Below, one piece after another: positions 32,686-53,841 of a DNA stretch of 64,000 nt (positions are counted from its first letter, which is position 1; the number at the start of each line of letters is the position of its first letter). A model generated the notes under the pieces. The model was given only the letters and a program-made list of their open reading frames with translations, ran no database searches and had not been told where the DNA came from. The DNA comes from Rhizobium etli 8C-3. Lineage in GTDB: Bacteria > Pseudomonadota > Alphaproteobacteria > Rhizobiales > Rhizobiaceae. The stretch is from positions 1,364,001 through 1,428,000 of the forward strand of contig NZ_CP017244.1 of the NCBI RefSeq assembly GCF_001908375.1, read 5' to 3'. The position numbers and the translations under genes were made by a program.

Positions 32686-33519
32686 TCATGCAGTCGCTGT
32701 CAGTTCTTCTACTCGCTTGAGGTCGAGAACCGCCTTGATCGGAAGGTGGTCGGAGGCGACGCGGGCAAGCGGCGTATCATGCGCCTCGACATTCGTCAGC
32801 ACACCTTTGCGGTTCGACATGATACGATCGAGCGCCAAGATCGGCAGGCGCGCCGGAAAGCTTGCGACGGCGGGGGGCTGGGCCTCAAAAGCGGATTGAA
32901 GCGTGTTGAGCGAGGAACGGTCGCCGAGCCGCCATTCGTTGAGGTCGCCAAGCAGAACGGTCGTCGCTTCGCTTCGATCGGCCATCAGCTCGACCAGCAT
33001 CTGCGCCTGGCGCGCCCGCGAATGGCGCAGAAGCCCGAAATGGGCAGCGATGATGCGGAGCTCACCGCCATTTTCCAGTTCGAGTTCCGCAACAAGCGCC
33101 CCGCGCGGTTCGAGCCCCGGCAATTTGATCTGGTGCACGTCGCGCACCAGCCCCTTCTTGAAGAGCACGACATTGCCGTGCCAGCCGTGTGCCTTCGACA
33201 TGCCCGAAACCGGAACCGGAATAAGCCCCGTCTCGCGCTCCAGGCGCGTCAGATCAAGGATCCCGGTTCGCTCCCCGAAGCGCGTATCGGCCTCCTGCAG
33301 GGCGATCACGTCGGCGCCGATTTCGTGGATAACCCGGCTCGTCCGCTCGGGATCGCAGCGCCTGTCGGCGCCGACGCATTTATGGACGTTATATGAAGCG
33401 ATCAACGTACCTTCGGCCCGCGGCTTTGCCGCAGCCAGCACGGCCTCCAGCCGTTTTTTCCGGTTGCGGATCGAGGCGAGAATGCTGGCGGGGAGGTTGT
33501 CCTTTTTGGCATGCATCGA
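32686..33519 (-). CDS. Endonuclease/exonuclease/phosphatase (EEP) family protein
   Basis: About 277 residues. The EEP fold is shown by LIASYNVHKCVGADRR (Asn), DVIALQEADTRFG (catalytic Glu), TTVLLGDLNEWRLG (Asp, Asn) and RVASDHLPIKAVLDL (Asp-His). The family includes nucleases, phosphodiesterases and sphingomyelinase-like enzymes; the context next to cardiolipin synthase is compatible with a lipid or a DNA substrate. The frame is open to 33648 inside the upstream gene; I favour the ATG at 33519 (MHAKKDNLP), but this start is uncertain. Confidence 0.8.
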   Translation of the reverse strand, partial: SMHAKKDNLPASILASIRNRKKRLEAVLAAAKPRAEGTLIASYNVHKCVGADRRCDPERTSRVIHEIGADVIALQEADTRFGERTGILDLTRLERETGLIPVPVSGMSKAHGWHGNVVLFKKGLVRDVHQIKLPGLEPRGALVAELELENGGELRIIAAHFGLLRHSRARQAQMLVELMADRSEATTVLLGDLNEWRLGDRSSLNTLQSAFEAQPPAVASFPARLPILALDRIMSNRKGVLTNVEAHDTPLARVASDHLPIKAVLDLKRVEELTATA

Positions 33520-33607
33520 AGTCAACACGGGCTCCGTTGGTCGAAAACGGCTCGGGTTCGGAGTATAGGCCCACGGGTAAAACTTGCCATGCTTCTGTCT
33601 CAGAAAA

Positions 33608-35071
33608 TCAAAGATAAGGCGAACCCAGCCACAGGATCTTTTCAACAAGCCGCACCAGGAAAGGCCGCGACCGCAGGCTCTCCAGCGTCACCGGGGCTGC
33701 AGATTTCAGCATCTGATCGATATGCTCGTCGATCTCCGCCGCAAATCCCTCGTTTAGCACTTCAAGATCCACCTCGAAATTCAGCCTGAGCGAACGCGGA
33801 TCAAGATTGGACGAACCGACATAGGTCCAGACGCCATCGACCGTCAGCAGTTTCGAGTGGCTGAAGCTCCCGGTCGAACGCCAGATGCGGCAGTAATTCT
33901 TGAGGATTTGGTCGAACTGCGCCGTCATCGCCCGGTCGACGAGGACAAGGTTGTTGACTGCCGGGACGATGATATCGACCTCGACGCCACGCCGTGCGGC
34001 TGTCGTCAGCGCGCTGATCAGCTCACGATCCGGCAGGAAATAGGGTGACATGATGCGGATCGATTGCCGCGCAACGGAAAAGGCGCCCATCAGCATCTTG
34101 TGATTGGTCTCGACGCTGCGGTCCGGTCCGGACGCGACGACGCGCATGATGACAGGATCGCCGGGCTGGCGTTCAGGCGCTTCGATACGCCACGCCTCTG
34201 CGTTCAGAACCTCGCCTGTCGTGAAGCGCCAGTCCTCGGCTGCGACATCAAAGAGATCGGCAACAACAGAACCGGTGACCGAGAAATGGGTATCGCGCGC
34301 AAAATCATCGCCCGTCATCGCCTGGCTGAAGCCCTGGCGTATGTTCATGCCGCCCGTCAGTGCCACACGCCCGTCGACGACGATGATTTTCCGGTGCGTG
34401 CGCAGATTTGCATAGGGGAGCCGCAGGCCCATGATGACATTGCCGTTGAAGACTGAAACCGTCAACCCGCCGTCGGCGAGATAGCCAAGGATACTGGGCA
34501 CCGAGTATCGGGCCCCGACGGCATCGATTAGCACGCGCACCTCGACGCCGCGCTTTGCCGCCGCAATCAGCGCGTCGGCGATGCGCAGGCCGATCGTGTC
34601 GCGATCGAAAATATATGTCTCAAGCAGGACGCTTCGCTCGGCCCCGTCGATCGCGGCCTTCATGGCTGTGTAGGCATCATCGCCGGTTTCCAGCATGTCG
34701 ATCGAATTGCCGGTCGTCAGCGGATAGCGGGCGACGCGATCTCCAAGCGTTTGCAAGGCTGCAAAGCGCCGCCCGTAATTGCTGATGATCGTCTCCGGCT
34801 CCGCATCGAAACTTTCAAGCTCATCGAGGTCGGCTGCCGGCAGCAAGGCATCGCGCCGCAGACTCAAGGATTTGCGACGGATGCGGTTGATCCCGGCGAT
34901 GGCGTAAAGCACCGCGCCGATGATTGGAGACAGGATGATGACGCCGACCCAGCCGATTGCGGCGCGTACCTCTTCCTTCGTCATAGCCGCATGGATTGCC
35001 GCGGCGGTCCCCATGCCAAGAGATATGACGAAAAGGAAATGCGGCCAATAGGTCGATATGAGATAAAACAT
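33608..35071 (-). CDS. cls: Cardiolipin synthase (phospholipase D superfamily)
   Basis: About 487 residues. Two N-terminal membrane helices (YWPHFLFVISLGMG, AIGWVGVIILSPIIGAVLYA) are followed by two HKD motifs: THRKIIVVDGRVALTGGMN and SHSKLLTVDGVWTYVGSSN. This fits bacterial Cls, which joins two phosphatidylglycerols. An upstream TTG at 35107 extends the frame, but the ATG at 35071 opens the first helix properly. It lies 77 bases after treZ and just before the EEP gene on the same strand, so treZ-cls-EEP may be one transcript. Confidence 0.88.
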   Translation of the reverse strand: MFYLISTYWPHFLFVISLGMGTAAAIHAAMTKEEVRAAIGWVGVIILSPIIGAVLYAIAGINRIRRKSLSLRRDALLPAADLDELESFDAEPETIISNYGRRFAALQTLGDRVARYPLTTGNSIDMLETGDDAYTAMKAAIDGAERSVLLETYIFDRDTIGLRIADALIAAAKRGVEVRVLIDAVGARYSVPSILGYLADGGLTVSVFNGNVIMGLRLPYANLRTHRKIIVVDGRVALTGGMNIRQGFSQAMTGDDFARDTHFSVTGSVVADLFDVAAEDWRFTTGEVLNAEAWRIEAPERQPGDPVIMRVVASGPDRSVETNHKMLMGAFSVARQSIRIMSPYFLPDRELISALTTAARRGVEVDIIVPAVNNLVLVDRAMTAQFDQILKNYCRIWRSTGSFSHSKLLTVDGVWTYVGSSNLDPRSLRLNFEVDLEVLNEGFAAEIDEHIDQMLKSAAPVTLESLRSRPFLVRLVEKILWLGSPYL

Positions 35072-35147
35072 TGCAGAAAGATATAGCTTGAAAGCGGCGG
35101 CCTTCAATTCGCCACCGCTCCCTCAGGACGCGAAAATTTCCAGGCTG

Positions 35148-36974
35148 CTATTTTATCAGCCGAGGATCGATCGCAAACACCACAGAACCAGCTGCAAGTT
35201 TACCATCCCCCGGCTGAACAAGGTGGCTCCCCAGGCGATCAAAGATTACCGCACCGTCGAAGGCCGGCACGGCGAGCGGGGTGTCGGCCAAGTTGGCCCG
35301 AAGCTCCAGCTTGCTGGTACCAAAGGTCCAGTCGATTGCCAGCGCGCCATCGACGCTTTCCAATGCCGCGCTTGCGACACGTTCCGGCTTCTTCAACAAC
35401 GGCACGACATAGTTATGCCGCAGATCGATGAGCTGGCTTAGATAGGTTTTCTGGCCTATGCCTTCATCACTGTCGCAACGCTGCCATTGAAGTTTTGAAC
35501 ATGCAAAAGTCGAGACCGCGTTCGGATTCGGCAAATCGTCTGGCGTCTTGCCTCGCTTCAGGCCGCCGAAACCTTCCGCTTCCGCCGCCCGCCCTTTGCG
35601 GACAATCTCACCAAGCTCGCCGGCGTAATCGCTGAAGAAGAAAAACGGCTGCGTCTCGCCATATTCATCCCCCATGAACAGGAACGGAACCTGCGGCGAG
35701 AGGATCAGTATCGCGGCCAGCATTTCGACCATATCGGGACGCGCAATGCTGACCAAGCGCTCGCCGAAGGCACGGTTGCCGACCTGATCGTGGTTCTGGA
35801 GGAAGTTGATGAAGGCCTGCGGCGGGAGATAAACCCGCTCACCCTTCGGCACTTCAGGCGGAGTGCCACGGTCTGGAAATACGAAGCCGTGCTGCATCGC
35901 GAGCTTTGTCTTTTCCCACAAATTAGATGCAAAGGGCCGATAGTGACCTTCCGTCTCGCCGGTCGCGATGATGTGAGCGACGTGATGGAAGTCATCGTTC
36001 CATTCCGCTGTAAAGGTCTTGACCCTTCCGTCGCCGTCGCGCTCGAGCAGGCTCACGAGGTTGCGCTGATCCTCGACGACGAGATGCACCGCTCGATCGG
36101 CAAAGGCGTTGCCGACTTCTGCCGACAACTGCTCGAGGATGTGCTGCTTCGACGTGTCGTAAATCTGCTCCACCGCATCGAGCCGTAGGCCATCGAGCCG
36201 GAATTCGCCGATCCAGTAAAGAGCATTTTCGACGAAGTAGCGGCGTACCGGCTCCTGTCCGAAATCGATCGCCGCACCCCACGGCGTGTTGCGATCGAAG
36301 CGGAAGAACTCGGGCGCATACCTGTGCAGGTAGTTTCCATCCGGGCCGAAATGGTTATAGACGACATCGAGCAGCACCATGAGGCCGTGGCCATGTGCTG
36401 CGTCGATGAATGCCTTGAAGTCGGCCGGCGTTCCATAAGCTGAATGCGGTGCATAGTGCAGGACACCGTCATAGCCCCATCCGCGCTTGCCTGAAAATTG
36501 GGCCACGGGCATGACTTCGATTGCCGTAAAGCCCAACTTGGCCAGATGGCCGAGCTTTTCGGCGGCTGCCTTGAAGGTGCCCTCCCCTGTGAAGGCGCCT
36601 ATGTGGACTTCGCTGATCACCGCCTCTTCCCACGGCCTTCCCTTCCAGTCGTCATTCAGCCACTGATAGGAAGGCTCCACGATCAGCGACGGACCGTGCA
36701 CATCGCCGGCCTGCTCCCGAGAAGCAGGGTCGGGCACGACACCGCCATCTCCAAGAACGAAGGCATATGCGTCGCCCACCTTCGCCTCTGGAACCGTCAG
36801 CTCAAACCAACCGCCGGCAGACCGGTTCATAAGCCTGTCTTTGCCGCCGCAACGGAGTGCCATCTCCCTTTGTCCGGGCGCCCAGATGCGGAAATCAACG
36901 CAGTTCGCCCTGATCGTGGGCCCCCAGCCTTTTTCGCCTTCCGCGACAGAGCCTGCTTTCGAAACCTGATGCAT
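35148..36974 (-). CDS. treZ: Malto-oligosyltrehalose trehalohydrolase
   Basis: Releases trehalose from malto-oligosyltrehalose, the last step of the TreY-TreZ route from glycogen. 608 residues: an N-terminal carbohydrate-binding sandwich (FRIWAPGQREMALR), then the GH13 barrel with FTAIEVMPVAQFSGKRGWGY, LMVLLDVVYNHFGPDGNYL, the nucleophile in RLDGLRLDAVEQIYD, the acid in LVVEDQRN and LQNHDQVGNRA. No treY is in the window; the GlgX at 50.8 kb could supply debranched glucans. A weak EcfG-like promoter (GGAAC at 37041-37037, AATT at 37019-37016, minus strand) precedes it, sharing the divergent gap with udgX. Confidence 0.92.
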   Translation of the reverse strand: MHQVSKAGSVAEGEKGWGPTIRANCVDFRIWAPGQREMALRCGGKDRLMNRSAGGWFELTVPEAKVGDAYAFVLGDGGVVPDPASREQAGDVHGPSLIVEPSYQWLNDDWKGRPWEEAVISEVHIGAFTGEGTFKAAAEKLGHLAKLGFTAIEVMPVAQFSGKRGWGYDGVLHYAPHSAYGTPADFKAFIDAAHGHGLMVLLDVVYNHFGPDGNYLHRYAPEFFRFDRNTPWGAAIDFGQEPVRRYFVENALYWIGEFRLDGLRLDAVEQIYDTSKQHILEQLSAEVGNAFADRAVHLVVEDQRNLVSLLERDGDGRVKTFTAEWNDDFHHVAHIIATGETEGHYRPFASNLWEKTKLAMQHGFVFPDRGTPPEVPKGERVYLPPQAFINFLQNHDQVGNRAFGERLVSIARPDMVEMLAAILILSPQVPFLFMGDEYGETQPFFFFSDYAGELGEIVRKGRAAEAEGFGGLKRGKTPDDLPNPNAVSTFACSKLQWQRCDSDEGIGQKTYLSQLIDLRHNYVVPLLKKPERVASAALESVDGALAIDWTFGTSKLELRANLADTPLAVPAFDGAVIFDRLGSHLVQPGDGKLAAGSVVFAIDPRLIK

Positions 36975-37015
36975 GGATTGCCCCTGATTGACGTGAATGC
37001 TTTAACTCCTCGTGA

Positions 37016-37041
37016 AATTCATCAAGGGCGCCGCTTGTTCC
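37016..37041 (-). promoter_or_regulatory. Weak EcfG/RpoE2-like promoter before treZ
   Basis: Minus strand: GGAAC, 17 bases, AATT, with the -10 end 42 bases before the treZ ATG. It fits the loose GGAAC-N19-TT rule for S. meliloti RpoE2 but lacks the G of NGTT. Its -35 box is six bases from the -35 box of the divergent udgX promoter. Confidence 0.35.
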
Positions 37042-37047
37042 CGTGCT

Positions 37048-37073
37048 GGAACAAACATCGGCGTGGATCGGTT
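37048..37073 (+). promoter_or_regulatory. EcfG/RpoE2-like promoter before udgX
   Basis: GGAAC (37048-37052), 17 bases, GGTT (37070-37073); the ATG follows 28 bases later and an AAGGAGG site fits between. Matches the alphaproteobacterial general stress sigma factor pattern GGAAC-N16/17-NGTT. Confidence 0.65.
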
Positions 37074-37101
37074 GCAGATGAAGACATAAGGAGGAACCTC
37101 C

Positions 37102-37743: not shown

Positions 37744-37818
37744 CCGGCATTTCATGTTGCGGCGCAAATAATATTTTGCACTGTGTCAAAATTCTTCTTG
37801 AATATCCCCGATTCCTCT

Positions 37819-37844
37819 GGAACCATCCCGCCCGGTCTAGCGTT
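37819..37844 (+). promoter_or_regulatory. EcfG/RpoE2-like promoter before the DUF2934 gene
   Basis: GGAAC (37819-37823), 17 bases, CGTT (37841-37844): an exact match to the consensus. The ATG follows 32 bases later, with GGAG upstream of it. Confidence 0.75.
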
Positions 37845-37876
37845 TGACTGCGGGATGATGTGACTGGAGATCAGCG

Positions 37877-38131
37877 ATGACAGAAACTCGGGAAGAGTGG
37901 ATTAAAAAACGTGCATACGCCCTCTGGGAAGAAGAGGGACATCCTACCGGACGAGATTCAATACATTGGGAGCAGGCAAAGAAAGAGCGTGAAAAGCTCG
38001 AAAGTTCTGCTGCGTCCAAAGACGGCAAGGAAGTCAAGACCAGGGGCAAACGCACCGCACCGCCCGGGACAAAAAGCAACGGCGCTGCAAAGCCTACTCC
38101 AAAGCGTGCGGTCAGCCGCAAGTCTGCCTGA
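37877..38131 (+). CDS. DUF2934 small basic protein
   Basis: 84 residues. The N-terminal half is the DUF2934 motif (REEWIKKRAYALWEEEGHPT, then HWEQAKKE). The C-terminal half is Lys/Ala/Pro-rich and disordered (GKRTAPPGTKSNGAAKPTPK), reminiscent of histone-like tails. Members are frequent in rhizobial stress regulons; function unknown. The exact EcfG-type promoter just upstream supports stress induction. Confidence 0.85.
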   Translation: MTETREEWIKKRAYALWEEEGHPTGRDSIHWEQAKKEREKLESSAASKDGKEVKTRGKRTAPPGTKSNGAAKPTPKRAVSRKSA

Positions 38132-38299: not shown

Positions 38300-38324
38300 G
38301 GAACCAATTTTCTCGTGCGCTGTT
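38300..38324 (+). promoter_or_regulatory. EcfG/RpoE2-like promoter before the 24-residue peptide
   Basis: GGAAC (38300-38304), 16 bases, TGTT (38321-38324). The start codon of the peptide is 24 bases on, leaving room for its GGGAGG ribosome site. Confidence 0.6.
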
Positions 38325-38348
38325 AGTGGCGAAAATGGGAGGCTTGCC

Positions 38349-38423
38349 ATGAACAGTTACTTCGACAGCGTTCTCGTTTCACTTGTCGTAGCAGGTCTCT
38401 TCGTTTTGATCGCGCCGTTGTGA
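38349..38423 (+). CDS. 24-residue membrane micropeptide
   Basis: A tiny gene encoding MNSYFDSVLVSLVVAG followed by LFVLIAPL: a single hydrophobic helix with a short polar N-terminus. Support comes from a GGGAGG ribosome site seven bases before the ATG, an EcfG-like promoter at the expected distance, and overlap with the signals of a second small membrane gene nine bases downstream. No homologue is known to me. It may act in the membrane under stress, alone or with the next peptide. Confidence 0.55.
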   Translation: MNSYFDSVLVSLVVAGLFVLIAPL

Positions 38424-38665: not shown

Positions 38666-38691
38666 GGAACCTTTTACAGGCCCTGGCGGTT
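38666..38691 (+). promoter_or_regulatory. EcfG/RpoE2-like promoter before the KGG protein gene
   Basis: GGAAC (38666-38670), 17 bases, GGTT (38688-38691); the ATG is 30 bases further on, with AGAGGAGG between. Confidence 0.65.
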
Positions 38692-39311: not shown

Positions 39312-40043
39312 ATGACATACGAGCTCTATTACTGGGACGGCATCCAGGGACGAGGGGAATTCGTCCGCCTGTCACTGGAGGAGGCGGGGGCCGAGTATGT
39401 CGACGTCGCTCGCGAATCCGGGAGCGGCCGGGGAACCAGCGCAATGATGAACCTCATGCGGAGCGGCTCAGATCCGCATATCCCGTTTGCGCCTCCCTTT
39501 TTGAAAGATGGCGACCTCGTCATCCCGCACGTCGCCAATATCCTGCTTTATCTCGGACCGAAGCTCGGTCTGGTGCCCAAGCAGGAGGGCCTACTCTACG
39601 TGTTGAACGGCTTGCAACTCACCGTCGCCGATTTCGTCGCCGAGGTACATGACACGCACCATCCGATCGCCACCTCGCTCTACTATGAAGATCAGAAGGA
39701 CGAGGCAAAGGCGCGCTCGGCCGCATTTATCAAGGAACGCATGCCCAAATTTCTCGGCTATTTCGAACGCGTGCTGCGGCAGAACCCGCAAGGCCCGCAA
39801 CATATCCTCGGCGATGCGCTCACCTATGTCGACCTCTCGCTCTTTCAGATCATCGAGGGCCTGAACTATGCCTTCCCCAACGCCATGACAGGCTATCAGG
39901 CGAAATACCCGGCGCTATCGACCCTGCATGATACAGTGGCCAGGCGCCCGAACATTGCCGCCTACCTGAAATCGGAGCGGCGCATCGCTTTCAACGAGGA
40001 CGGAATCTTCCGGCACTATCCAGAACTCGACAAGGGGGGTTAA
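39312..40043 (+). CDS. Glutathione S-transferase family protein
   Basis: 243 residues. The thioredoxin-like N-terminal domain (TYELYYWDGIQGRGEFVRLS, then DLVIPHVANILLYLG) and the helical C-terminal domain (LGDALTYVDLSLFQIIEGLN) are those of a sigma/pi-like GST with the N-terminal Tyr kept. The start at 39312 (MTYELYYW) gives the proper strand 1. Likely detoxifies electrophiles or lipid peroxides; sits in the stress island without an obvious promoter of its own. Confidence 0.88.
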   Translation: MTYELYYWDGIQGRGEFVRLSLEEAGAEYVDVARESGSGRGTSAMMNLMRSGSDPHIPFAPPFLKDGDLVIPHVANILLYLGPKLGLVPKQEGLLYVLNGLQLTVADFVAEVHDTHHPIATSLYYEDQKDEAKARSAAFIKERMPKFLGYFERVLRQNPQGPQHILGDALTYVDLSLFQIIEGLNYAFPNAMTGYQAKYPALSTLHDTVARRPNIAAYLKSERRIAFNEDGIFRHYPELDKGG

Positions 40044-40280: not shown

Positions 40281-40343
40281 CCGGAGCCAAGGAAAAGCCG
40301 CCCATGAAGGTGTTTTCCTTGAGTTCTTTCATTGGAGACGGCC

Positions 40344-41159
40344 ATGGCGCGGCAGACTTTCTGGAAAGGTTATCTCAAGCTGTCGCTCGTCACGGCGTCA
40401 GTCTCGCTGACGCCAGCCACGACGGAGAGCAACAAGGTCCGTTTTCATGTTCTCAATCGCAAGACCAGCAACCGGGTCGAAAGCCGCTATGTCGACAGCG
40501 TTACCCATAAGGCCGTGTCCGGAAAGGAACAGGTCAAGGGTTTTCCGAAGGGCGAGGACGATTACGTCATTCTCGAAGACGACGAGATCGACGAGGTGGG
40601 GCTTGAAAGCACACGAACCATCGACATCGACACCTTCGTGCCGCGTGGCTCGATCGACTGGATCTGGTACGACAAGCCGCATTTTCTGGCGCCGGAGGAC
40701 AAGGTCGGCACAGAGGCCTTCTGCGTCATTCGCGAGGCGATGAGGGCAAACAACGTCGTTGGCATCGCAAGGCTGGTGCTTTATCGCCGTGAACGGGCGG
40801 TGCTTCTCGAGCCTCAAGGCAAAGGCATCGTTCTGTGGACGTTGCACTTCGGCAACGAGGTCCGAGAACCGGTCGCACACCTCGATATCGACACCAAGGT
40901 CGACACCAAGGTGCTCGCCATGATGACGCGCCTTGTCAAGGAAGAGACGAAAGAGTGGAGTGTCTCCATGGTGCAGGATCCGATTCAGAAGCGGCTGAAG
41001 ACAATGATCCGCAACAAGACGAAGAGCCTGAAACAGGCTGCGCCCGCAGCGAAGCGGCCCGCTGTCAGATCGACCGGCAATGTCATCAACATCATGGACG
41101 CCCTGAAGAAGAGCTTGGCCGCCGACGGCGAAAAGCCGAGATCACCGAGATCTCGCTGA
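40344..41159 (+). CDS. ku: Ku-family DNA end-binding protein (first copy)
   Basis: 271 residues; forms a ring-shaped dimer on double-strand breaks and recruits LigD. Core: ARQTFWKGYLKLSLVTASVS, VRFHVLNRKTSNRVESRYVD, GFPKGEDDYVILEDDEIDEV, TIDIDTFVPRGSIDWIWYDK. The C-terminal NVINIMDALKKSL is the LigD-interacting helix, followed by a basic tail (SPRSR). The start is the ATG at 40344 after GGAGACGG. It differs strongly from the second Ku at 43743, so the two may form distinct homodimers or a heterodimer. Confidence 0.93.
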   Translation: MARQTFWKGYLKLSLVTASVSLTPATTESNKVRFHVLNRKTSNRVESRYVDSVTHKAVSGKEQVKGFPKGEDDYVILEDDEIDEVGLESTRTIDIDTFVPRGSIDWIWYDKPHFLAPEDKVGTEAFCVIREAMRANNVVGIARLVLYRRERAVLLEPQGKGIVLWTLHFGNEVREPVAHLDIDTKVDTKVLAMMTRLVKEETKEWSVSMVQDPIQKRLKTMIRNKTKSLKQAAPAAKRPAVRSTGNVINIMDALKKSLAADGEKPRSPRSR

Positions 41160-42554: not shown

Positions 42555-43454
42555 CTAACGCTTCTTTTTTTTCTCAAGCGGCTTTGCTGCCGCAAAGAAC
42601 CCGTCCCACGGATCGTGCGGCAGCGCCTCGAGCCGCGGCGGCGTGTGGTCGATGGTGAAATGGGCCGGGCCGATGTCGGCGGTGAGTTCGCTCCATTCCA
42701 GCGGCATCGAGACGGCCGCGCCCGCCCGGGCACGCGTGGAGTAGGCGGCGACTGCAGTGTTGCCTCGGCCATTGCGCAGGTAGTCGATGAAGATCTTGCC
42801 GGTGCGCTCGGATTTTGTCGCCTTGACGATGTAGCGGTTCGGACTTTCTGCGGCCATGGTGTCCGCCAGCCGTTTCGCAAAGGCCTTCACCTCCCCCCAA
42901 CCTGCTTTTGGCTTCAGTGGCGTGACCACATGCAGCCCCTTGCCGCCCGAGGTCTTGACAAATGCGGCAAGTCCCTCTGCCTCCAGGCGCTCTTTGATCT
43001 CGCCGGCGGCAGCGATGATATTATCCCACGCAACCTCGCCGCCCGGATCGAGATCCATGGTTATCATGTCCGGCTTTTCCCAATCGTCCGTCGTTGCGCC
43101 CCAGGGATGAATTTCGAGCACAGCCGATTGCACGAGGGCCACCAAACCATCGAAATCGGCAATGCGCAGCAACTTTTCTCCGCCCCTGTCCTTCGGATCT
43201 GTGATCTGTTCGATGTTTTCGTTCATGCCCTTCCAGGCGTGTTTCTGGAAGAAACGCTGATGTCCCTCAATGCCGTCTGGCAGACGCAGCAGAGCCAGAG
43301 GACGATTGACCACGTAAGGCTCCATGAAGCGCCAGACCTGGGCGTAATAGTTGGCCAACCCTTCCTTGGTGACGCCTTCGTCCGGCCAGTAAATGCGATC
43401 CGGATGGGTCAGCGTCACATGGGATTTCGGCAGGTTTTTAGCGGGAGTCTTTTC
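42555..43454 (-). CDS. ligD: Stand-alone LigD-type primase-polymerase domain
   Basis: About 299 residues matching the C-terminal polymerase domain of LigD: VTLTHPDRIYWPDEGVTKEG, RFFQKHAWKGM, VLEIHPWGATTDDWEKPDMI, the metal-binding TMDLDPG, and FVKTSGGKGLHVVTPL. It can add nucleotides and fill gaps at breaks. No ligase or phosphoesterase domain is present in this gene or the window. The frame is open up to 43655, with a leader unlike known domains; the ATG at 43454 opens the domain. It follows the second ku by about 290 bases on the same strand. Confidence 0.9.
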   Translation of the reverse strand, partial: EKTPAKNLPKSHVTLTHPDRIYWPDEGVTKEGLANYYAQVWRFMEPYVVNRPLALLRLPDGIEGHQRFFQKHAWKGMNENIEQITDPKDRGGEKLLRIADFDGLVALVQSAVLEIHPWGATTDDWEKPDMITMDLDPGGEVAWDNIIAAAGEIKERLEAEGLAAFVKTSGGKGLHVVTPLKPKAGWGEVKAFAKRLADTMAAESPNRYIVKATKSERTGKIFIDYLRNGRGNTAVAAYSTRARAGAAVSMPLEWSELTADIGPAHFTIDHTPPRLEALPHDPWDGFFAAAKPLEKKKKR

Positions 43455-43742
43455 CATCTCGCGGACACGTCCTTCGCCAGTCTGTCCTCGCGCAAAGCGG
43501 TGCCGCAGGTTACCATTGGCGGACCACATGCGATATTCTCGCGACAAGCTCCGGCTGCAAAAAATGAACCCGCGCCCTTCCTCCGATGAGCTCTGTGCAT
43601 TGATCACAATATCGCCGTCATACTGCAGCCGCGTCACATCGTGCTTTTGAAGCACGAATCCGTTTCACCGAATGCGCCTTTGTCGCAGCGCGTTCACGGA
43701 TGATCGTCAGGAGTTTGAGCAGACAGGTCTCGAGCGCCATTG

Positions 43743-44588
43743 TCAGCCAGCTTTCTTGCGGCGGCTATCGGAGGCAGAGCGGTGCGCCGTCCCTTTCCCA
43801 GGCGTTTTCTTTTCACTCAACTTGGCACTCTGGCGCAGCGCCTCCATCAGATCGACAACCTTGCCCTCCGGCTTCGGCTTCGTCTTCGGCAGCGCCCTGC
43901 CCTCGATCTTGGCCTTCACCAGTTCGGTCAGCGCCGCCTCGTAGCGATCCTCATATTCGCTCGGCTCAAACACGCCCCGCTTCGTACCGATGATATGACC
44001 GGCAAGCTCGAGCATCTCCCTGTCGAATTTGATGTCCGGAATGTCCTTGAAAACCGGACCGGCAGAACGAACCTCGTAGTCGAAGTTCAACATCGTCGCG
44101 ATGACATAGTCCTCACGCTGACGGATCAGCAGGGTCCGGTTGCGCCGGAAGAGCACGGCCTGGGCAAGTGCTGCCACATTATTTTCACGCATGCTCCTCG
44201 CAATCAGGCGCAGCGCCTCTTCGTCACTCTCGTCGACAGGTGCAAGATAGTAAGGACGGTCGAAGTAGAGCTTGTCGATTTCATCGAGCGCTATGAAACT
44301 CTTTACATCCATGATCTTGTCGCTCTCCGGCATCACATTGGCAATCTCCTCGCCTTCGATGACGATGTATTCGCCATTGTCCAACTGGTAACCCTTGACC
44401 TGATCTTCGCGCTCCACGGGCTTGCCGGTCTCGCTGTCCACGAACTGACGCTCGACGCGATGGCCAGTTTTCCGATTGATGATATTGAAGGAGAGCCGGT
44501 CAGATCCGGAAATTGCAGTATAAAGCCCGACGGCGCAGACAAGGTCGCCGATTTTCAGATGACCCTTCCAGCTGGCCCGCGCTGCCAT
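43743..44588 (-). CDS. ku: Ku-family DNA end-binding protein (second copy)
   Basis: 281 residues: ARASWKGHLKIGDLVCAVGL, LSFNIINRKTGHRVERQFVD, KGYQLDNGEYIVIEGEEIAN, and the LigD-interacting GKVVDLMEALRQSAK near the C-terminus, with a basic tail (SASDSRRKKAG). The start at 44588 has GGAGG upstream; the open frame reaches 44891 but overlaps the DUF2188 gene. Third gene of a minus-strand unit (hypothetical, DUF2188, ku) with gaps of 15 and 19 bases, headed by an EcfG-like promoter at 45161-45185. Stress-sigma control of a Ku pair is known in S. meliloti. Confidence 0.93.
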   Translation of the reverse strand: MAARASWKGHLKIGDLVCAVGLYTAISGSDRLSFNIINRKTGHRVERQFVDSETGKPVEREDQVKGYQLDNGEYIVIEGEEIANVMPESDKIMDVKSFIALDEIDKLYFDRPYYLAPVDESDEEALRLIARSMRENNVAALAQAVLFRRNRTLLIRQREDYVIATMLNFDYEVRSAGPVFKDIPDIKFDREMLELAGHIIGTKRGVFEPSEYEDRYEAALTELVKAKIEGRALPKTKPKPEGKVVDLMEALRQSAKLSEKKTPGKGTAHRSASDSRRKKAG

Positions 44589-44607: not shown

Positions 44608-44838
44608 TCAGAGCCGGCTTCCACTCTTGTCCGTTTCAAGCGGCACAAACCGCCAACCGCCGTCCGGAGCCGGAAACGCCAACGTAGCATCTCCGTCGCC
44701 GATTTTCTGGCGGGACGCTGCGCGTTTTGCGTGATTGATCGCCTCTTCGACGGTCGCGTAGGTTTCGGAAAGCGTGCCGCCGAGCTTGTATGCCCAGCCT
44801 TCGTCATGGGGCACGATCTGATAGGTAATGTCGACCAT
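44608..44838 (-). CDS. DUF2188-like small protein
   Basis: 76 residues: TYQIVPHDEGWAYKLGGTLS, then YATVEEAINHAKRAA, which is the DUF2188 pattern (a three-stranded sheet and one helix). A GGACAGG site precedes the start. It lies between a small hypothetical gene and ku in a tight cluster. Function unknown. Confidence 0.75.
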   Translation of the reverse strand: MVDITYQIVPHDEGWAYKLGGTLSETYATVEEAINHAKRAASRQKIGDGDATLAFPAPDGGWRFVPLETDKSGSRL

Positions 44839-44853: not shown

Positions 44854-45120
44854 TCAGTCGTCATCGCGTGGCGCTGCTTTGCGGCGCTCATCCAAGGCGA
44901 TTATCCTTTCGACAGACGCGAGATCGTCACTGGTAACGGGCCGCACGGGATCGGAGGCGATCGCTTCGAGCACTTCGTCTGAAAGCGCGCCTTTGCGGAT
45001 TGCCCATTCCAATGTTTCACGCGTTTCCCGCTCCGCCTTCAGCTGCGCATAGAGCGCTACGATCAGACGGTCGCGGTGATCGAACCCACTCTTTAGCGCC
45101 ATGTTCGGGATATTCGGCAT
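44854..45120 (-). CDS. Small hypothetical protein heading the ku operon
   Basis: 88 residues, charged and helical: HRDRLIVALYAQLKAERETR, ETLEWAIRKGALSDEVLEAI. I do not recognise a family. First gene after the EcfG-like promoter; leader of about 40 bases. A second start at 45102 (MALKSGFDHRD) is possible. Confidence 0.6.
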   Translation of the reverse strand: MPNIPNMALKSGFDHRDRLIVALYAQLKAERETRETLEWAIRKGALSDEVLEAIASDPVRPVTSDDLASVERIIALDERRKAAPRDDD

Positions 45121-45160: not shown

Positions 45161-45185
45161 AACTGATTGGAGCCCGAAAAGTTCC
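45161..45185 (-). promoter_or_regulatory. EcfG/RpoE2-like promoter before the ku operon
   Basis: Minus strand: GGAAC (45185-45181), 16 bases, AGTT (45164-45161), 41 bases before the first ATG at 45120. It would drive the hypothetical, DUF2188 and ku genes, and possibly the LigD polymerase. Confidence 0.65.
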
Positions 45186-49013: not shown

Positions 49014-49077
49014 TTGTGCGCCTCCTCGTCCACTGAACAATAATGGACATTGCCTTTGGTGCTTTCCGAAAATCTGG

Positions 49078-49102
49078 GGAACCAACCGCGCTTCGGGTAG
49101 TT
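49078..49102 (+). promoter_or_regulatory. EcfG/RpoE2-like promoter before the PfpI-type gene
   Basis: GGAAC (49078-49082), 16 bases, AGTT (49099-49102), 46 bases before the ATG at 49149. Confidence 0.6.
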
Positions 49103-49148
49103 GTCCATATGCATTTTCAAATCAACAGCAGAAGGAAAGGACGTGTCC

Positions 49149-49709
49149 ATGCCTTCCATCAGTTCTGCAAAAATACTTATTCTTGCAACTGACGGTTATG
49201 AGCGCTCCGAGCTACGGGTCCCGCATGAGGAGCTACGAAAGCGTGGCGCCAGCATTAAGATTGCCTCTATCAAGGAGGGCAGCATCAAGAGCTGGAGCAA
49301 TGGCGACTGGGGAGATAGCATCAGTGTCGACCTTCTGGCAAACGAGGTAAACGTTATCGATTTCGATGCCCTCGTCCTGCCTGGCGGCCAGATCAATCCT
49401 GACAAGCTGCGCACCGACGAGAATGCAATGCGCGTCGTCCGCGAATTCGTTAAATCCGGTAAGGTTGTCGCCGCCATATGCCATGCGCCCTGGCTGCTTG
49501 TCGAAGCCGACGCGCTGCGAGGCAGGCAGGCAACCTCTTACAGGTCGATCAGGACCGATGTGGAGAACGCCGGCGCCACCTGGAAAGATGAGGAAGTCGT
49601 GACCGACCAAGGCATCATCACCTCCCGTTCCCCGGACGATCTGGACGCATTTGTTGCAAAGATCGTCGAAGAGATCGAGGAAGGCCGCCACGAGAAGCGA
49701 GCCGCTTGA
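49149..49709 (+). CDS. DJ-1/PfpI-family protein (glutamine amidotransferase-like class 1)
   Basis: 186 residues. The nucleophile elbow is AAICHAPWLLVEA (Cys), with the partner Glu in GYERSELRVPHEELRKRG and ALVLPGGQINPD before it. Relatives are stress proteins, sometimes reported as deglycases or proteases such as YhbO/PfpI. GGAAAGGAC lies before the ATG. An EcfG-like promoter upstream and a strong terminator downstream make this a single-gene stress unit. Confidence 0.88.
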   Translation: MPSISSAKILILATDGYERSELRVPHEELRKRGASIKIASIKEGSIKSWSNGDWGDSISVDLLANEVNVIDFDALVLPGGQINPDKLRTDENAMRVVREFVKSGKVVAAICHAPWLLVEADALRGRQATSYRSIRTDVENAGATWKDEEVVTDQGIITSRSPDDLDAFVAKIVEEIEEGRHEKRAA

Positions 49710-49728
49710 TAGGACCTCCTGTTCACTG

Positions 49729-49759
49729 AGCCCGCGCACACCCAGCGCGGGCTCTTTTT
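49729..49759 (+). terminator. Rho-independent terminator after the PfpI-type gene
   Basis: AGCCCGCGC pairs with GCGCGGGCT around a seven-base loop, followed by CTTTTTAT. It also overlaps the last codons of the convergent topoisomerase gene, so it could end transcription from both sides. Confidence 0.85.
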
Positions 49760-50801
49760 ATGAGGCTTTACGGACGGGCGTCTCCGCCGATTGCCGATCG
49801 CGAGACAGGAAATCGAGCAGCCGGTTCTCCGCCGCCCGTAGTCCCCACAACGGCTTAGCAGCGGGCATGATGACTTCGCCTCCAGAACAGTCCTTGTCGG
49901 CAAGCGCAATGATGGCAGGGTGAATGTAACTTGAACGCGAGATGGCAGCCGTATTGTGCAAGACGGCGGCCGAAGCCTCAGCCATGTCCTTCACGGTCGG
50001 CCGTTTTCCCTTTTCAAGTGCGTTGCGCGCAACGGCGAAGGCGGCGAGCGAGCCGGCCCACGTCCGAAAGGTCTTCGCGGTGATCGCAATACCTGAAATT
50101 TCCGCCAGATAGCTGTTCAAGCGCCCGGATTCGATCGGTTTCAACGCGCCCGTCTCGTCCTTCCAGACGAATAGCTGGCGACCGGGAAGGTCGGCGATTT
50201 CTTCCAGAATCCTTTGCAATCTGGGGTGCTTGAGGCTACGCCGGACACGCTTTCCGCCCTTGGAACGAAATTTCAGTTCGATCCGGTCCTCCGCCAAGGT
50301 GATGTGCCGCTTCAACAGCGTCGTTGCGCCATAGGTGCCGTTTTCCTTAAGATAGGCTTGGCTGCCGACGCGAAGATGTGCCTCATCGAGCAATGTCGTC
50401 AACGCCGCAAGGACACCGCGGACATTTTCAGCGCCGACCTCAAGATCACGCTGCACCTGTCGTCGTATCCTGGGCAAAGCGTGGCCAAAGGCGATCAGCT
50501 GATCGAATTTTGCTATGCTGCGGAAGGACTGCCAATCCTTGTGATAGCGATATTGCTTTCGGCCCCGTGCATCAAAGCCGGTCGCCTGCAAATGACCGTT
50601 CTCCTTCAGGCATATCCAGACGTTTTCGTATGCGGGAGGCAGCCCGAGTGCGGCGATACGACGCCTTTGCTGCGGTTCGCATACCAATGACCCATCCGGC
50701 AGGCGGTAACAGAAGCCTCGGCCCGTTTTCTGCCTGCGAATACCGGGTTCGGTGTCGCTCACATAGACCAGGCCAATGTCGCTTAGGGCTTCAGCACTCA
50801 T
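49758..50801 (-). CDS. DNA topoisomerase IB (poxvirus-like)
   Basis: Relaxes supercoils by a 3'-phosphotyrosyl intermediate. 347 residues, normal for bacterial TopIB. Active-site tetrad: Arg-Lys in GKQYRYHKDWQSFR and KFRSKGGKRVRRSL, Arg/His in TAKTFRTWAGSLAAF and the nucleophile Tyr in SRSSYIHPAII. The start ATG at 50801 lies 15 bases after the glgX stop, so it is probably translated from the glgX message and shares its EcfG-like promoter. The open frame runs further up but overlaps glgX. Confidence 0.9.
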   Translation of the reverse strand: MSAEALSDIGLVYVSDTEPGIRRQKTGRGFCYRLPDGSLVCEPQQRRRIAALGLPPAYENVWICLKENGHLQATGFDARGRKQYRYHKDWQSFRSIAKFDQLIAFGHALPRIRRQVQRDLEVGAENVRGVLAALTTLLDEAHLRVGSQAYLKENGTYGATTLLKRHITLAEDRIELKFRSKGGKRVRRSLKHPRLQRILEEIADLPGRQLFVWKDETGALKPIESGRLNSYLAEISGIAITAKTFRTWAGSLAAFAVARNALEKGKRPTVKDMAEASAAVLHNTAAISRSSYIHPAIIALADKDCSGGEVIMPAAKPLWGLRAAENRLLDFLSRDRQSAETPVRKAS

Positions 50802-50815
50802 CGCTTTGTTCGATT

Positions 50816-52969
50816 TTAAGTGTTGCGGCGGCCGAAGTGGAACCAACGCTGACGTTGGGTCTTTGTAGCATTCTTCGGTGACTGCGAGGCACCTTTCGGC
50901 GCAAAGACGGCAACGCTTTCGCGGTAGACCATCACCGGGTTTTCCGGGTTGAATACCGTAAAGGGATCGTCGGCACCGGTATCGACCACCCGCTGCCACG
51001 TCTTGATGCCGTTCACGTCCGGAAGGGTGACTTCGCAATCACCGCCAGCATTGAATACCATGAAGAGGCCATCCATCTTTTCCGCATCCGATGCGAGGAC
51101 ACTCCGTGACACGTAAACGCTCAGCACTCGCAATTCGTTGTCGTTCCAGGCGCCATCGTCCATGAAGTCGCCATCCGGTTTGTACCAGGCGATTTCGATC
51201 CGTCCGTCCTCTGTGGTTTCACCGGTTAAAAAACGCTCCTGCCGAAGCTCCGGCTGCGCTTTGCGGAAAGCAATCATTCTCTGACAGAAGGTCAGAAACG
51301 GATCGTCAAGCCCGCTCCAGTCGATCCAGCCGATCTCGTTGTCCTGGCAATAGGCATTGTTGTTGCCGCCCTGGCTGTTGCCGACCTCATCACCTGCAAG
51401 GATCATCGGCACGCCCTGGCTGAGCAGCAACGTTGCCATCATGTTGCGGCGCCGCCTGCGGCGCGCGTCATTGATATCGGCGTCGTCGGTCGCGCCCTCC
51501 GCACCCATATTGTCCGAATGGTTGTCGGAATGGCCGTCGCGGTTGTCCTCGCCGTTGGCTTCATTATGCTTGCCGTTGAACGAGACCGTATCCATAAGCG
51601 TGAAGCCGTCATGGGCCGAAAGCAGATTGATGGACGATGTCGAGCCGCGATCCGAATGATTGAACTGCAGCGCCGAACCGGTAACACGCTCTGCCATCTC
51701 CGAGACCTGGCCGCCATCGCCTTTCCAGAAACGTCGGACGTCATCGCGGAACTTGTCGTTCCATTCGCGAAAAGGATGGGGAAAACCACCGACCTGATAG
51801 CCGCCTTCGCCGACATCCCAAGGCTCGGCAATCAGCTTCACGCCCGCAAGCATCGGATCTTGCCGAATCGCGCTGAAAAAGATGCCCTGCCGGTCGAATT
51901 CCATATCCTGCCGGCCGAGAGTGCTCGCCAGATCGAAGCGGAAACCGTCGATGTGCATGACGCCAACCCAATAGCGCAAGCTGTCGAGCACCATGCGCAT
52001 CACCATGGGATTGGCAACGTTTAGCGTGTTGCCGGTGCCGGTCGTATCGAAGGTGTGGCGGGGATCGTCAGGCGATAGGATGTAGTAGCTTGCATTGTCG
52101 AGACCGCGAAAGGAAAGCGTCGGACCTCTCTCGCTGCCTTCGGCCGTGTGGTTATAGACCACATCCATGATGACCTCGATGCCGGAGGCATGAAACTTTC
52201 TCACCATCGTCTTGAACTCGGTGATCTTGTCACTCGACATATAACGCGACTGCGGCGCGAAGAAACCGAGCGTCTGGTAGCCCCAGTAATTGGTGAGATG
52301 CTTCTCCTCCAGATAGCGATCGTTCGGAAAGAACTGGATCGGCAGCAATTCGACGGCCGAGACACCGAGTTTCGTCAGATGATCGATGATCGGGTCGCTG
52401 CACATGCCAAGAAAGGTACCGCGCAATCGGTCCGGCACCTTCGGATGGGTCATCGTCATACCGCGCACATGGGTCTCATAAATGACCGTTTCGGTCCATG
52501 GGCGTCGGATTGCCTCATCGCCGTCCCAGTCGAAATCGGGATCCTGCACCACGCCCTTGACCATGAAGGGAGCGCTGTCGCGTTCGTCGAAGGAGAGATC
52601 GTCCTTGCCGATCGTATAGCCGTAGAGCGCATCGTCCCACATTAGATCGCCAATCACCTGCTTGGCGTAGGGATCGAGTAAAAGCTTGTTTGGATTGAAA
52701 CGGTGGCCGTTTTTCGGATCATAGGGACCGCTCGCGCGATAGCCATAGACGGTGCCCGGTTTCAGACCGGCGACATAGCCCGACCAGATATCGCCCTCGC
52801 GCTTGGGCAATGGCATGCGTGCCATTTCCGTCTTGCCGTCATCGGAAAACAGACAAAGGTCGATCTGCTCGGCGTGAGCGGAATAGACAGCAAAATGAGT
52901 CCCCGTCCCGGTATATTCGGCGCCCAGTTCTGGCTTCATGAAATCGAGTTCGGAAAAAGAAAAACTCAT
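50816..52969 (-). CDS. glgX: Glycogen debranching enzyme GlgX (TreX)
   Basis: Hydrolyses alpha-1,6 branches of glycogen. 717 residues: N-terminal CBM48 (GAEYTGTGTHFAVYSAHAEQ), GH13 barrel with IEVIMDVVYNHTAEGSERGP, nucleophile DGFRFDLAS, acid LIAEPWDVGEGGYQVG and SAHDGFTLMD, then a C-terminal sheet domain. An insertion rich in Asp/His/Asn (from DNRDGHSDNHSDNMGAEGAT) before RRRRRRNMMATL is longer than usual. Start at 52969 (GGAG five bases before). With treZ at 35-37 kb it supplies glucans for the TreY/TreZ trehalose route. Confidence 0.93.
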   Translation of the reverse strand: MSFSFSELDFMKPELGAEYTGTGTHFAVYSAHAEQIDLCLFSDDGKTEMARMPLPKREGDIWSGYVAGLKPGTVYGYRASGPYDPKNGHRFNPNKLLLDPYAKQVIGDLMWDDALYGYTIGKDDLSFDERDSAPFMVKGVVQDPDFDWDGDEAIRRPWTETVIYETHVRGMTMTHPKVPDRLRGTFLGMCSDPIIDHLTKLGVSAVELLPIQFFPNDRYLEEKHLTNYWGYQTLGFFAPQSRYMSSDKITEFKTMVRKFHASGIEVIMDVVYNHTAEGSERGPTLSFRGLDNASYYILSPDDPRHTFDTTGTGNTLNVANPMVMRMVLDSLRYWVGVMHIDGFRFDLASTLGRQDMEFDRQGIFFSAIRQDPMLAGVKLIAEPWDVGEGGYQVGGFPHPFREWNDKFRDDVRRFWKGDGGQVSEMAERVTGSALQFNHSDRGSTSSINLLSAHDGFTLMDTVSFNGKHNEANGEDNRDGHSDNHSDNMGAEGATDDADINDARRRRRRNMMATLLLSQGVPMILAGDEVGNSQGGNNNAYCQDNEIGWIDWSGLDDPFLTFCQRMIAFRKAQPELRQERFLTGETTEDGRIEIAWYKPDGDFMDDGAWNDNELRVLSVYVSRSVLASDAEKMDGLFMVFNAGGDCEVTLPDVNGIKTWQRVVDTGADDPFTVFNPENPVMVYRESVAVFAPKGASQSPKNATKTQRQRWFHFGRRNT

Positions 52970-53001
52970 AATCACTCCGCTTGGTGGATCGCCAAGCTGG
53001 A

Positions 53002-53026
53002 AACGTTACCGCAGTGCGAAAGTTCC
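53002..53026 (-). promoter_or_regulatory. EcfG/RpoE2-like promoter before glgX-topIB
   Basis: Minus strand: GGAAC (53026-53022), 16 bases, CGTT (53005-53002), an exact consensus match 33 bases before the glgX ATG. It should drive glgX and the topoisomerase gene. Confidence 0.75.
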
Positions 53027-53046
53027 CTGCGCCGACGCCAAGGGCG

Positions 53047-53841
53047 CTACGGCATGAGCTGGCCGCCATTCACCTCAATGATCTGGCCGGTGATGTAACC
53101 TGACAGGGTCGGCGAAGCTAGAAACAGATAAGCGCCGACGCAGTCTTCCGATGTGCCGATGAAGCCCATCGGAATGGTTTTGCGCTGCATCTCCATCTGT
53201 TCGTCGTTGGTATAGCGCTCGTGGAACGGCGTAGCAATGACACCGGGTGCGACGGCGTTGACGCGGATGCGGTCGCCGACGAACTCCTTGGCATGGCCCC
53301 GGGTGATCGTCGAAACGAAGCCTTTGGAGGCCGCATAGAGAACCGCACCGTTGCCGCCGCCGTTTCGTGCAGCGATCGAAGTCGTATTGACGATGAAGCC
53401 GCCCTGCTTCTTCAGCCAGGGATGGGCGGCGCGCGTTGCGGCAAGAACAGAACGGGCATTCAGATCCATTACCTTGGCATAATGCTCGTCGGTATATTCC
53501 GCGGTCAGTTTGCGGCCAAGCATGCCGCCAGCATTGTTGATGAGGCCATCGAGATGTCCGAAGGTCTTAGCGGTCTCCTCTACAACGCGTTCCGTCTCGC
53601 CTTCCTTAGAAACGTCGCCCTGTACCAGATGCACAACGGTACCAGTCGCTCTGATCTCCTCGGCAAGCTTTTCGGCTGGCTCGCGGCTTGTGTTGTAGTG
53701 GATGCCGATCTTCATGCCCTGCGCCGCGAACGCCCGCGCAAGAGCCGCACCGATGCCAGTCGATGCACCGGTTATCAGCACCGCTTTGCCATTCAGATCA
53801 GGTATTTTTATGGACGCGAGTGATTGAGCAAGATTAGCCAT
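53047..53841 (-). CDS. Short-chain dehydrogenase/reductase
   Basis: 264 residues, classical SDR: cofactor loop LITGASTGIGAALA, INNAGG, catalytic Ser in NTTSIAARN and YAASKGFV (Tyr, Lys), and APGVIATPF. The start at 53841 (MANLAQSLASIK) has GGGAGG upstream. The frame is open to 54093 but reads through a dinucleotide repeat (His-Thr and Leu-Ser runs), clearly untranslated. It lies 200 bases after pcaF on the same strand with the microsatellite between. Substrate unknown. Confidence 0.88.
   Translation of the reverse strand: MANLAQSLASIKIPDLNGKAVLITGASTGIGAALARAFAAQGMKIGIHYNTSREPAEKLAEEIRATGTVVHLVQGDVSKEGETERVVEETAKTFGHLDGLINNAGGMLGRKLTAEYTDEHYAKVMDLNARSVLAATRAAHPWLKKQGGFIVNTTSIAARNGGGNGAVLYAASKGFVSTITRGHAKEFVGDRIRVNAVAPGVIATPFHERYTNDEQMEMQRKTIPMGFIGTSEDCVGAYLFLASPTLSGYITGQIIEVNGGQLMP

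Follow-up and report, generated by a model that had tools for sequence, protein, structure and literature searches.

The analyzed stretch, referred to here as the window, comprises 64,000 nucleotides (nt) of the Rhizobium etli 8C-3 genome (7.31 Mb in 4 contigs; contig NZ_CP017244.1, forward-strand positions 1,364,001 to 1,428,000). It contains an island of DNA-maintenance, trehalose/glycogen and small-protein genes, several of which are preceded by sites resembling promoters of EcfG/RpoE2, the alphaproteobacterial general stress sigma factor. In a plasmid collection, the closest named relatives of the window are the megaplasmids of R. gallicum and Rhizobium sp. 007 (~91% identical in DNA across some three-quarters of the island), and the replicon is therefore most likely a Rhizobium megaplasmid of the R. 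gallicum kind. The island starts with minus-strand genes for an endonuclease/exonuclease/phosphatase (EEP) protein, a PLD-family protein and a TreZ-like protein. These are followed by a plus-strand run encoding UdgX, a DUF2934 protein, two short peptides (mp1 and mp2), a KGG-type protein, a glutathione S-transferase-like protein (GST), Ku and an alcohol dehydrogenase. A minus-strand run then holds a LigD primase-polymerase domain (LigD-Pol), a second Ku, a DUF2188 protein and an 88-amino-acid (aa) protein. Finally, plus-strand genes encode a peptidase M15, a YkuD-domain protein and PfpI; a cupin-like gene faces pfpI, and TopIB and GlgX are encoded on the minus strand (Table 1).

An earlier note, made from the window's letters, had reported seven GGAAC-N16/17-NGTT sites shortly before start codons, two of them with the full CGTT. 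A sequence scan recovered all seven at the coordinates and on the strands reported, 24 to 46 nt before start codons, and CGTT in two, those at 37819 and 53026. Three of the seven have the N17 spacing.

Table 1. Promoter-like sites and genes of the island, with positions in the window. The gap is the number of nt between a site and the start codon, counted on the sequence.
Feature	Position	Strand	Details
TreZ-like alpha-amylase-family protein	35148..36974	-	PF00128; tblastn 53-56% identity to Sinorhizobium treZ adjoining udgX
EcfG-type site before udgX, N17, GGTT	37048..37073	+	28-nt gap to start codon
UdgX, cross-linking uracil-DNA glycosylase family, 213 aa	37102..37743	+	TIGR03914 294 bits (cut-off 190)
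EcfG-type site before DUF2934, N17, CGTT	37819..37844	+	32-nt gap to start codon
DUF2934 small protein, 84 aa	37877..38131	+	PF11154 43.7 bits
EcfG-type site before mp1-mp2	38300..38324	+	24-nt gap to mp1 start codon
mp1, 24-codon open reading frame, possible leader	38349..38423	+	By eye, hydrophobic in the R. gallicum clade only
mp2, 56 aa	38432..38602	+	One hydrophobic stretch by eye; conserved in Rhizobium
EcfG-type site before KGG	38666..38691	+	30-nt gap to start codon
KGG-type small basic protein, 104 aa	38722..39036	+	Translation
GST	39312..40043	+	PF14497; without its own EcfG-type site here
Ku, first copy (kuA)	40332..41159	+	TIGR02772 265.8 bits
Stand-alone LigD-Pol protein, true start uncertain	42555..43655	-	PF21686 296.7 bits; PolDom structures 2fao, 5dmu
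Ku, second copy (kuB)	43743..44588	-	TIGR02772 257.5 bits
DUF2188 protein	44608..44838	-	PF09954 32.3 bits
88-aa hypothetical protein, first gene downstream of the 45185 site	44854..45120	-	No Pfam match
EcfG-type site before hyp-DUF2188-ku	45161..45185	-	40-nt gap to start codon
EcfG-type site before PfpI	49078..49102	+	46-nt gap to start codon
DJ-1/PfpI family protein	49149..49709	+	PF01965 171 bits; TIGR01382
DNA topoisomerase IB (TopIB), frame open from 51038	49758..50807	-	PF01028, PF21338; 2f4q E 4e-46
GlgX glycogen debranching enzyme, first gene of glgX-topIB	50816..52969	-	PF02922, PF00128; 83-85% identity to Rhizobium orthologues
EcfG-type site before glgX-topIB, N16, CGTT	53002..53026	-	32-nt gap to glgX start codon

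Conservation of the sites was surveyed in 18 loci, namely 20-kb stretches around 15 same-genus UdgX orthologues (>290 bits, the window's own excluded; 34 of 41 same-genus genomes have a UdgX match), L077 (pRL11 of R. johnstonii), and L078 and L079, the close relatives from R. gallicum and Rhizobium sp. 007 named above. Orthologue matches below 35% identity or beginning past query residue 60 were left out, and a site was counted when it lay within 200 nt upstream. A site precedes the orthologues of DUF2934 in 11 of 12 relatives, those of mp2 in 10/10, KGG in 9/9 and glgX in 8/8. The first Ku gene has one in 4/5 relatives (R. gallicum IE4872 and three more distant ones keep the full site), and the second Ku gene in 4/6. 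Both misses are R. gallicum-type loci, in which the DUF2188 and 88-aa genes come first and the site stands before these; accordingly, the 88-aa gene carries it in both such relatives. For PfpI, eight relatives picked from 25 listed all have an NGTT site within 140 nt upstream, at 61 to 71 nt in seven of them. Directly upstream of udgX, the NGTT site is present in 8 of the 18 relatives.

Across the surveyed orthologue sets, the reversed pattern was matched once, at the 88-aa gene. Neighboring genes in the same loci have no site upstream (EEP 0/11, PLD 0/11, GST 0/10, LigD-Pol 0/15), and neither does topIB where it lies directly behind glgX (0/8); in the two loci with topIB separated from glgX (L073 and L075), it does have a site upstream. 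In total, the stretches of the 15 relatives (299 kb) hold 96 sites versus 22 reversed matches. The spacers diverge, with a mean pairwise identity of 0.33 to 0.78 depending on the gene, while GGAAC and GTT are kept; the core identity of 1.00 in this alignment is a selection effect, because only loci having the site were aligned.

A related island with treZ, glgX, udgX and GST is found in Sinorhizobium meliloti 1021 (on pSymB) and BL225C, S. medicae, S. fredii and S. terangae. Sites stand before glgX, treZ and udgX (NGTT) in all five loci, two of which belong to one species (S. meliloti), and before DUF2934 in all four loci that reach it. Another site lies ~100 to 150 nt before GST or before DUF3175-GST. 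The topIB gene follows glgX in S. meliloti and S. medicae, is unmatched in the S. fredii stretch and lies beyond the end of the S. terangae stretch. The S. meliloti relative of the DUF2934 protein (44% identity, tblastn) connects the island to published regulon data. SMb21442 is a listed RpoE2 target, with a value of 4.4 for RpoE2 and 2.0 for RpoE6 (PMC6180224). Its printed promoter recurs without a mismatch in the S. meliloti 1021 island, and the DUF2934 frame begins 72 nt after the first base of that promoter. The gene order also fits the published names, with treZ as SMb21447, SMb21444/SMb21445, and the CBS-domain neighbor SMb21441; judged by position, topIB would be SMb21445 and glgX SMb21446.

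The R. etli 8C-3 genome has an ecfG-nepR-phyR-HWE kinase locus of its own (L080: sigma factor of the extracytoplasmic function [ECF] type, NepR, PhyR and HWE kinase), with five sites of the refined pattern described below. The motif published for R. etli EcfG1 is GGAAC-N16-CGTT, and no motif was found for EcfG2 in the reported analysis (PMC3892343). The island thus resembles the EcfG/RpoE2 regulon (R. etli EcfG1, S. meliloti RpoE2) in its -35 and -10 elements, their spacing, the EcfG-NepR-PhyR-HWE locus and the related target SMb21442. It differs in clustering DNA-maintenance genes and in members (UdgX, LigD-Pol, KGG and mp2) that do not appear as such in the main-text passages on that regulon. 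Taken together, the published EcfG1 motif, the ecfG locus, the conservation and SMb21442 lend strong sequence support to the link with the general stress sigma factor drawn by the earlier note. The cluster very probably consists of genuine promoters for EcfG/RpoE2 and would form an island of stress-regulon genes serving DNA maintenance and the turnover of trehalose and glycogen. The well-supported step, judged from the sequence, is control by a sigma factor of EcfG type; a joint physiological purpose is what we infer beyond it.

UdgX is among the members that are apparently new in this setting. The protein contains GEQPG (G58-G62), KRRMH and HPSYLLR (HPS at 180-182), with G58-G62 and H114 invariant in 13 aligned sequences, and its nearest solved structures are those of Mycobacterium smegmatis UdgX (E ~2e-52). 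The family is defined by motif A (GEQPG), an R-loop (KRR-x-H) with a nucleophilic His, and motif B (HPS), in PMC10359453, where protection of apurinic/apyrimidinic (AP) sites under stress is only a role proposed by the discoverers. By these motifs the island protein is assigned to the UdgX family, and a covalent cross-link to uracil DNA is predicted. It shares GEQPG, the KRR-x-H loop with the cross-linking His and HPSxLLR with the M. smegmatis enzyme; in contrast, the loop reads KRRIH there and KRRMH here, and the gene is linked to a stress sigma factor here.

The breadth of this link was assessed in the 80 best named UdgX loci, drawn from 564 candidates encoding a relative, and all breadth figures refer to these 80. 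They comprise 22 stand-alone alphaproteobacterial, 10 stand-alone non-alphaproteobacterial, 43 long-frame (probably fused) alphaproteobacterial and 5 other loci (4 of unclear class and 1 long-frame non-alphaproteobacterial). "Stand-alone" rests on a 110-residue open-frame cut, by which L104, with TopIB nearby, fell in the long-frame group. An NGTT site lies within 150 nt of stand-alone alphaproteobacterial udgX in 6/22 loci (reversed pattern, 1/22), in 0/10 stand-alone non-alphaproteobacterial loci, in 2/43 long-frame alphaproteobacterial loci and once among the other five. Five of the six site-bearing stand-alone loci belong to Rhizobiaceae or Phyllobacterium and one to a Beijerinckiaceae metagenome-assembled genome. 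Sites per 10 kb, compared for the three main classes with the other five loci excluded, number 3.20 versus 0.61 reversed around stand-alone alphaproteobacterial UdgX, 0.29 versus 0.29 around stand-alone non-alphaproteobacterial UdgX and 0.80 versus 0.31 in the long-frame alphaproteobacterial class. The tie between UdgX and the site is lineage limited, because a direct site before udgX occurs in only those 6 of 22 loci. A general UdgX-EcfG link across bacteria was rejected, the feature being mainly one of Rhizobiaceae and Phyllobacterium, and GGAACC(T/A)TC...CATT matches that recur in Mesorhizobium and elsewhere were disregarded as likely coding sequence. Ku, LigD-Pol or TopIB are neighbors in 5/22 stand-alone versus 1/43 long-frame alphaproteobacterial loci (Fisher p 0.015).

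A separate UdgX-TopIB neighborhood occurs in Roseobacteraceae as well. On Phaeobacter inhibens pP66_a (L177, 1239-10650), the gene for TopIB is ~3 kb away from those for a radical SAM protein and a UdgX of the long type (481 aa), and the locus also has a ligase-associated exonuclease and DNA ligase pair.

For break repair, the earlier note had listed the Ku operon behind the 45185 site. Its genes and its site were recovered, and the list proved incomplete: it had missed LigD-Pol, the first Ku gene and a second nonhomologous end joining (NHEJ) locus with a site on the same replicon. The island has two Ku genes and a LigD with the Prim-Pol domain only. The second locus, ~250 kb away on the same contig (1657499-1661383), has two Ku genes (1657-1659 kb), the first of them preceded at 34 nt by GGAAC-N16-AGTT, with LigD on the other strand. 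In its LigD frame (1660-1661 kb), which the end of the locus truncates, LIG and POL domains are accompanied by a phosphoesterase match that is partial and below the cut-off. Among relatives, LigD-Pol lies ~90 nt to 1.5 kb from the second Ku gene, and on pRL11 ligD overlaps topIB by 4 nt. TopIB has both its N-terminal and catalytic domains (PF21338, PF01028), and its C-terminal Tyr (SYI), which we take to be the active-site Tyr, aligns with the 2f4q type I topoisomerase.

Stress control of such genes has precedents. The stress-inducible NHEJ of S. meliloti described by Dupuy in 2019 reportedly involves two ku genes under RpoE2 control. Multiple ku and ligD copies, with NHEJ mattering in stationary phase according to the published passages, are shared with that system; here, in contrast, one Ku operon shares an island with UdgX, TopIB, GlgX and a Pol-only LigD, with a probably full LigD elsewhere on the replicon. 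Ku, TopIB, GlgX and TreZ are reported as EcfG dependent in Sphingomonas melonis Fr1 (PMC6599016), as is ku-ligD in Sphingopyxis granuli TFA (PMC7083833), both likenesses to the present gene set. Unlike here, TopIB (#1831), Ku (#1102) and the GlgX/TreZ cluster (#1273-6) are separately numbered in S. melonis, and the word UdgX is absent from that paper. In addition, heat reportedly induces three of the four ku genes of Mesorhizobium loti (PMC3989490), and salt induces glgXe in R. etli (PMC4167512).

The earlier note had taken EcfG control of Ku genes as known and had placed a broader set beside it. Part of that set has already been published, Ku, TopIB, GlgX and TreZ for Sphingomonas and ku-ligD for Sphingopyxis; neither NHEJ under stress control nor TopIB and GlgX under EcfG is new. 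UdgX, stand-alone LigD-Pol, KGG and mp2 are apparently new as predicted general-stress promoter members. No statement of UdgX or stand-alone LigD-Pol under EcfG, nor of this island, was found in literature listings and main-text passages; supplementary regulon tables may well list such genes. The conserved stress-promoter sites before udgX, beside TopIB and NHEJ genes, make the proposed role of UdgX directly testable in laboratory rhizobia, and if UdgX is indeed a stress effector, this would give it its missing physiological setting. The small proteins DUF2934, KGG, mp2 and DUF3175 are likely members of the rhizobial stress regulon, which is relevant to the survival of soil drying and to inoculants.

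In the PhyR pathway, stress frees EcfG from NepR. In this genome, the same release through PhyR would allow EcfG-RNA polymerase to start transcription at udgX, DUF2934, mp1-mp2, KGG, hyp-DUF2188-ku, PfpI and glgX-topIB. UdgX would then covalently cap uracil-derived abasic sites and TopIB would relax the DNA, while Ku and LigD-Pol, with the presumed full LigD from elsewhere on the replicon, would join broken ends and GlgX, together with TreZ, would turn glycogen toward trehalose. The combined effect would be DNA kept intact in non-growing cells, with the products possibly acting together as one desiccation/dormancy system.

We give an even chance to a plainer account of the clustering, in which the island is a regulon neighborhood only: the genes share a stress promoter, act independently and have accreted on secondary replicons without forming a single genome-guard system. 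The content of the island varies strongly among relatives, as Ku and a hybrid kinase each occur in some and are missing from others and treZ is found in some only; unrelated genes (for a thiamine pyrophosphate [TPP] enzyme, Nramp and a flavin reductase) stand behind the sites in L073, a site-dense UdgX locus; and the Phaeobacter TopIB lies near its long UdgX among other repair genes. Against this account, the combination of UdgX, TopIB, GlgX, DUF2934 and GST is seen repeatedly in both Rhizobium and Sinorhizobium, and the Ku, LigD-Pol or TopIB neighbors favor stand-alone over long-frame UdgX in the comparison given above. Joint action can also be put in a stronger form, which seems possible although somewhat doubtful as a whole. 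Stand-alone Rhizobiaceae UdgX would be a general-stress effector of an EcfG-driven dormancy program. By capping abasic sites it would keep base excision from breaking up the genome; meanwhile TopIB, which needs no ATP, would relax supercoils, and Ku/LigD-Pol would hold and repair ends until growth starts again. In Rhizobium and Sinorhizobium, UdgX-TopIB-GlgX-DUF2934 would then form a single module passed on as a whole.

Several observations weigh against control of the island by EcfG itself. The full CGTT is present in only two of the seven island sites, the other five differing at the first -10 base, and the site of the first Ku gene is degenerate in this genome (GGAGC for GGAAC). Nine further udgX relatives, a clade with R. 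johnstonii pRL11, carry GGAAC-N16-GATT, not NGTT, at the same place. A relaxed pattern is found upstream of udgX in 17/18 relatives, a count that stands without a reversed relaxed control, and in gene sets without sites it matched only 1/1 cupin genes. The topIB sites in L073 and L075 end just 8 to 9 nt upstream of the first ATG, so that a very short leader or a later start is needed. The weak site that the earlier note had placed before treZ was rejected as an EcfG site: GGAAC stands there without GTT, and neither of the two R. gallicum-type relatives has a site. In this clade treZ is thus without an intact site, unlike in the five Sinorhizobium loci. The single site at the second Ku locus is not unusual for the length (47/200 shuffles), GlgX of S. 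melonis is treated as a putative indirect EcfG target in the text of PMC6599016, and EcfG-dependent transcription in the present genome is suggested only by analogy with SMb21442.

A further point on the same side concerns the identity of the sigma factor. Two EcfG paralogues, whose regulons differ in part, are reported for R. etli, and another ECF sigma factor could share the sites, because RpoE6 overexpression also raises SMb21442 (2.0 versus 4.4 for RpoE2). The promoters might then be real and read mainly by such a factor, the second EcfG paralogue or one of ECF26 type, rather than by core EcfG; the RpoE6 and ECF15 consensus motifs are indeed described as somewhat similar by the authors of the SMb21442 data. 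However, the published cross-species ECF26 consensus is -35 GGAATA/-10 GT, not GGAAC, the island sites match the R. etli EcfG1 motif while EcfG2 has none in that study (PMC3892343), and the reported RpoE2 effect on SMb21442 is the larger one. We consider this alternative improbable and retain EcfG/RpoE2 as the preferred reader of the sites.

Motif counts give a mixed picture. GGAAC-N16/17-NGTT has 8 matches in the window versus 2.93 ± 1.88 in dinucleotide shuffles, 8 being reached in 1/100 shuffles. The eighth match, at 31281 (-), falls within a molybdopterin-domain gene (29727-31883) and is most likely a chance match. To be counted with the points against EcfG, reversing the pattern likewise yields 8 window matches, and the raw motif is rarer genome-wide than its reversed control (378 versus 462), with no enrichment of the CGTT form either (164 versus 191). 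The genome-wide scoring that the earlier note had proposed shows no enrichment for the raw pattern and an excess for a refined one, GGAACHWW-N14/15-GTT, to which an A/T-rich step was added: 94 versus 40 reversed matches genome-wide, and 7 versus 1 in the window. All seven island sites are among the 94, making the island the densest 16 kb of the genome (7 sites), followed by the ecfG-nepR-phyR locus (5). When the 94 sites were placed at random 20,000 times, 7 in 16 kb never occurred; the maximum was 6, reached in 6 placements. The density test is partly circular, because the refined motif was selected after the island sites and the relatives had been inspected, which also counts against the reading, and the case therefore rests on cross-species conservation, the independent test. 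Chance matching in a GC-rich genome, to which the raw counts (378 versus 462; 8 versus 8) and the intragenic match would point, is already contradicted by the conservation counts and hardly tenable as the source of the sites, since seven of the eight in the window stand at promoter distance, are found again at the same place upstream of orthologues in diverged species and are missing upstream of neighbor genes.

The small proteins of the island were examined further. The earlier note had pointed to two unannotated membrane peptides. This stands for mp2, a putative membrane-type protein that is conserved and preceded by a site in all ten relatives, and falls for mp1, which was rejected as a conserved membrane peptide: only its start position after the promoter is conserved. 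Five database proteins match mp2, one of them the window's own sequence. A profile search gave no Pfam or NCBIfam match for the KGG protein, and its relative in L090 carries the annotation "plasmid stabilization protein."

Related islands contain additional genes. A hybrid histidine kinase (PAS-GAF-HisKA-HATPase-receiver, 905 aa) lies between mp2 and KGG on pRL11 (L077:7219-9936) and is not in the window; counterparts occur in L096 and L090, and kinases of 39 to 40% identity lie near UdgX in L100 and L103. It is a candidate sensor encoded inside the regulon island. Also on pRL11, a gene for a 122-aa protein (L077:9982-10350) faces KGG; it follows a GGAAC-N17-GGTT site (L077:10416, minus strand) that is back to back with that of KGG. 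Similar minus-strand sites precede the same position in three further Rhizobium loci, at L062:11948, L064:11994 and L067:9038.

In two UdgX islands, a small protein is encoded directly behind a GGAAC...CGTT site (L072:6175-6462 and L074:6244-6528). The L072 protein, the one searched, matches ribosome modulation factor weakly (20.8 bits versus a cut-off of 27.9), and the pair may link the regulon to ribosome hibernation. DUF3175 proteins also recur in the islands (L077:10872-11162, L073:15634-15921, L098:5407-5679 and L176:7412-7678), and in L073 and L098 their genes directly follow an EcfG-type site; the KGG-GST interval of the window showed no such protein. Lastly, the N-terminal HTHTHT and SLSLSL codon runs of the SDR frame in the window (53047-54093, minus strand) reflect a simple DNA repeat just upstream of the likely true start (MANLAQ...).

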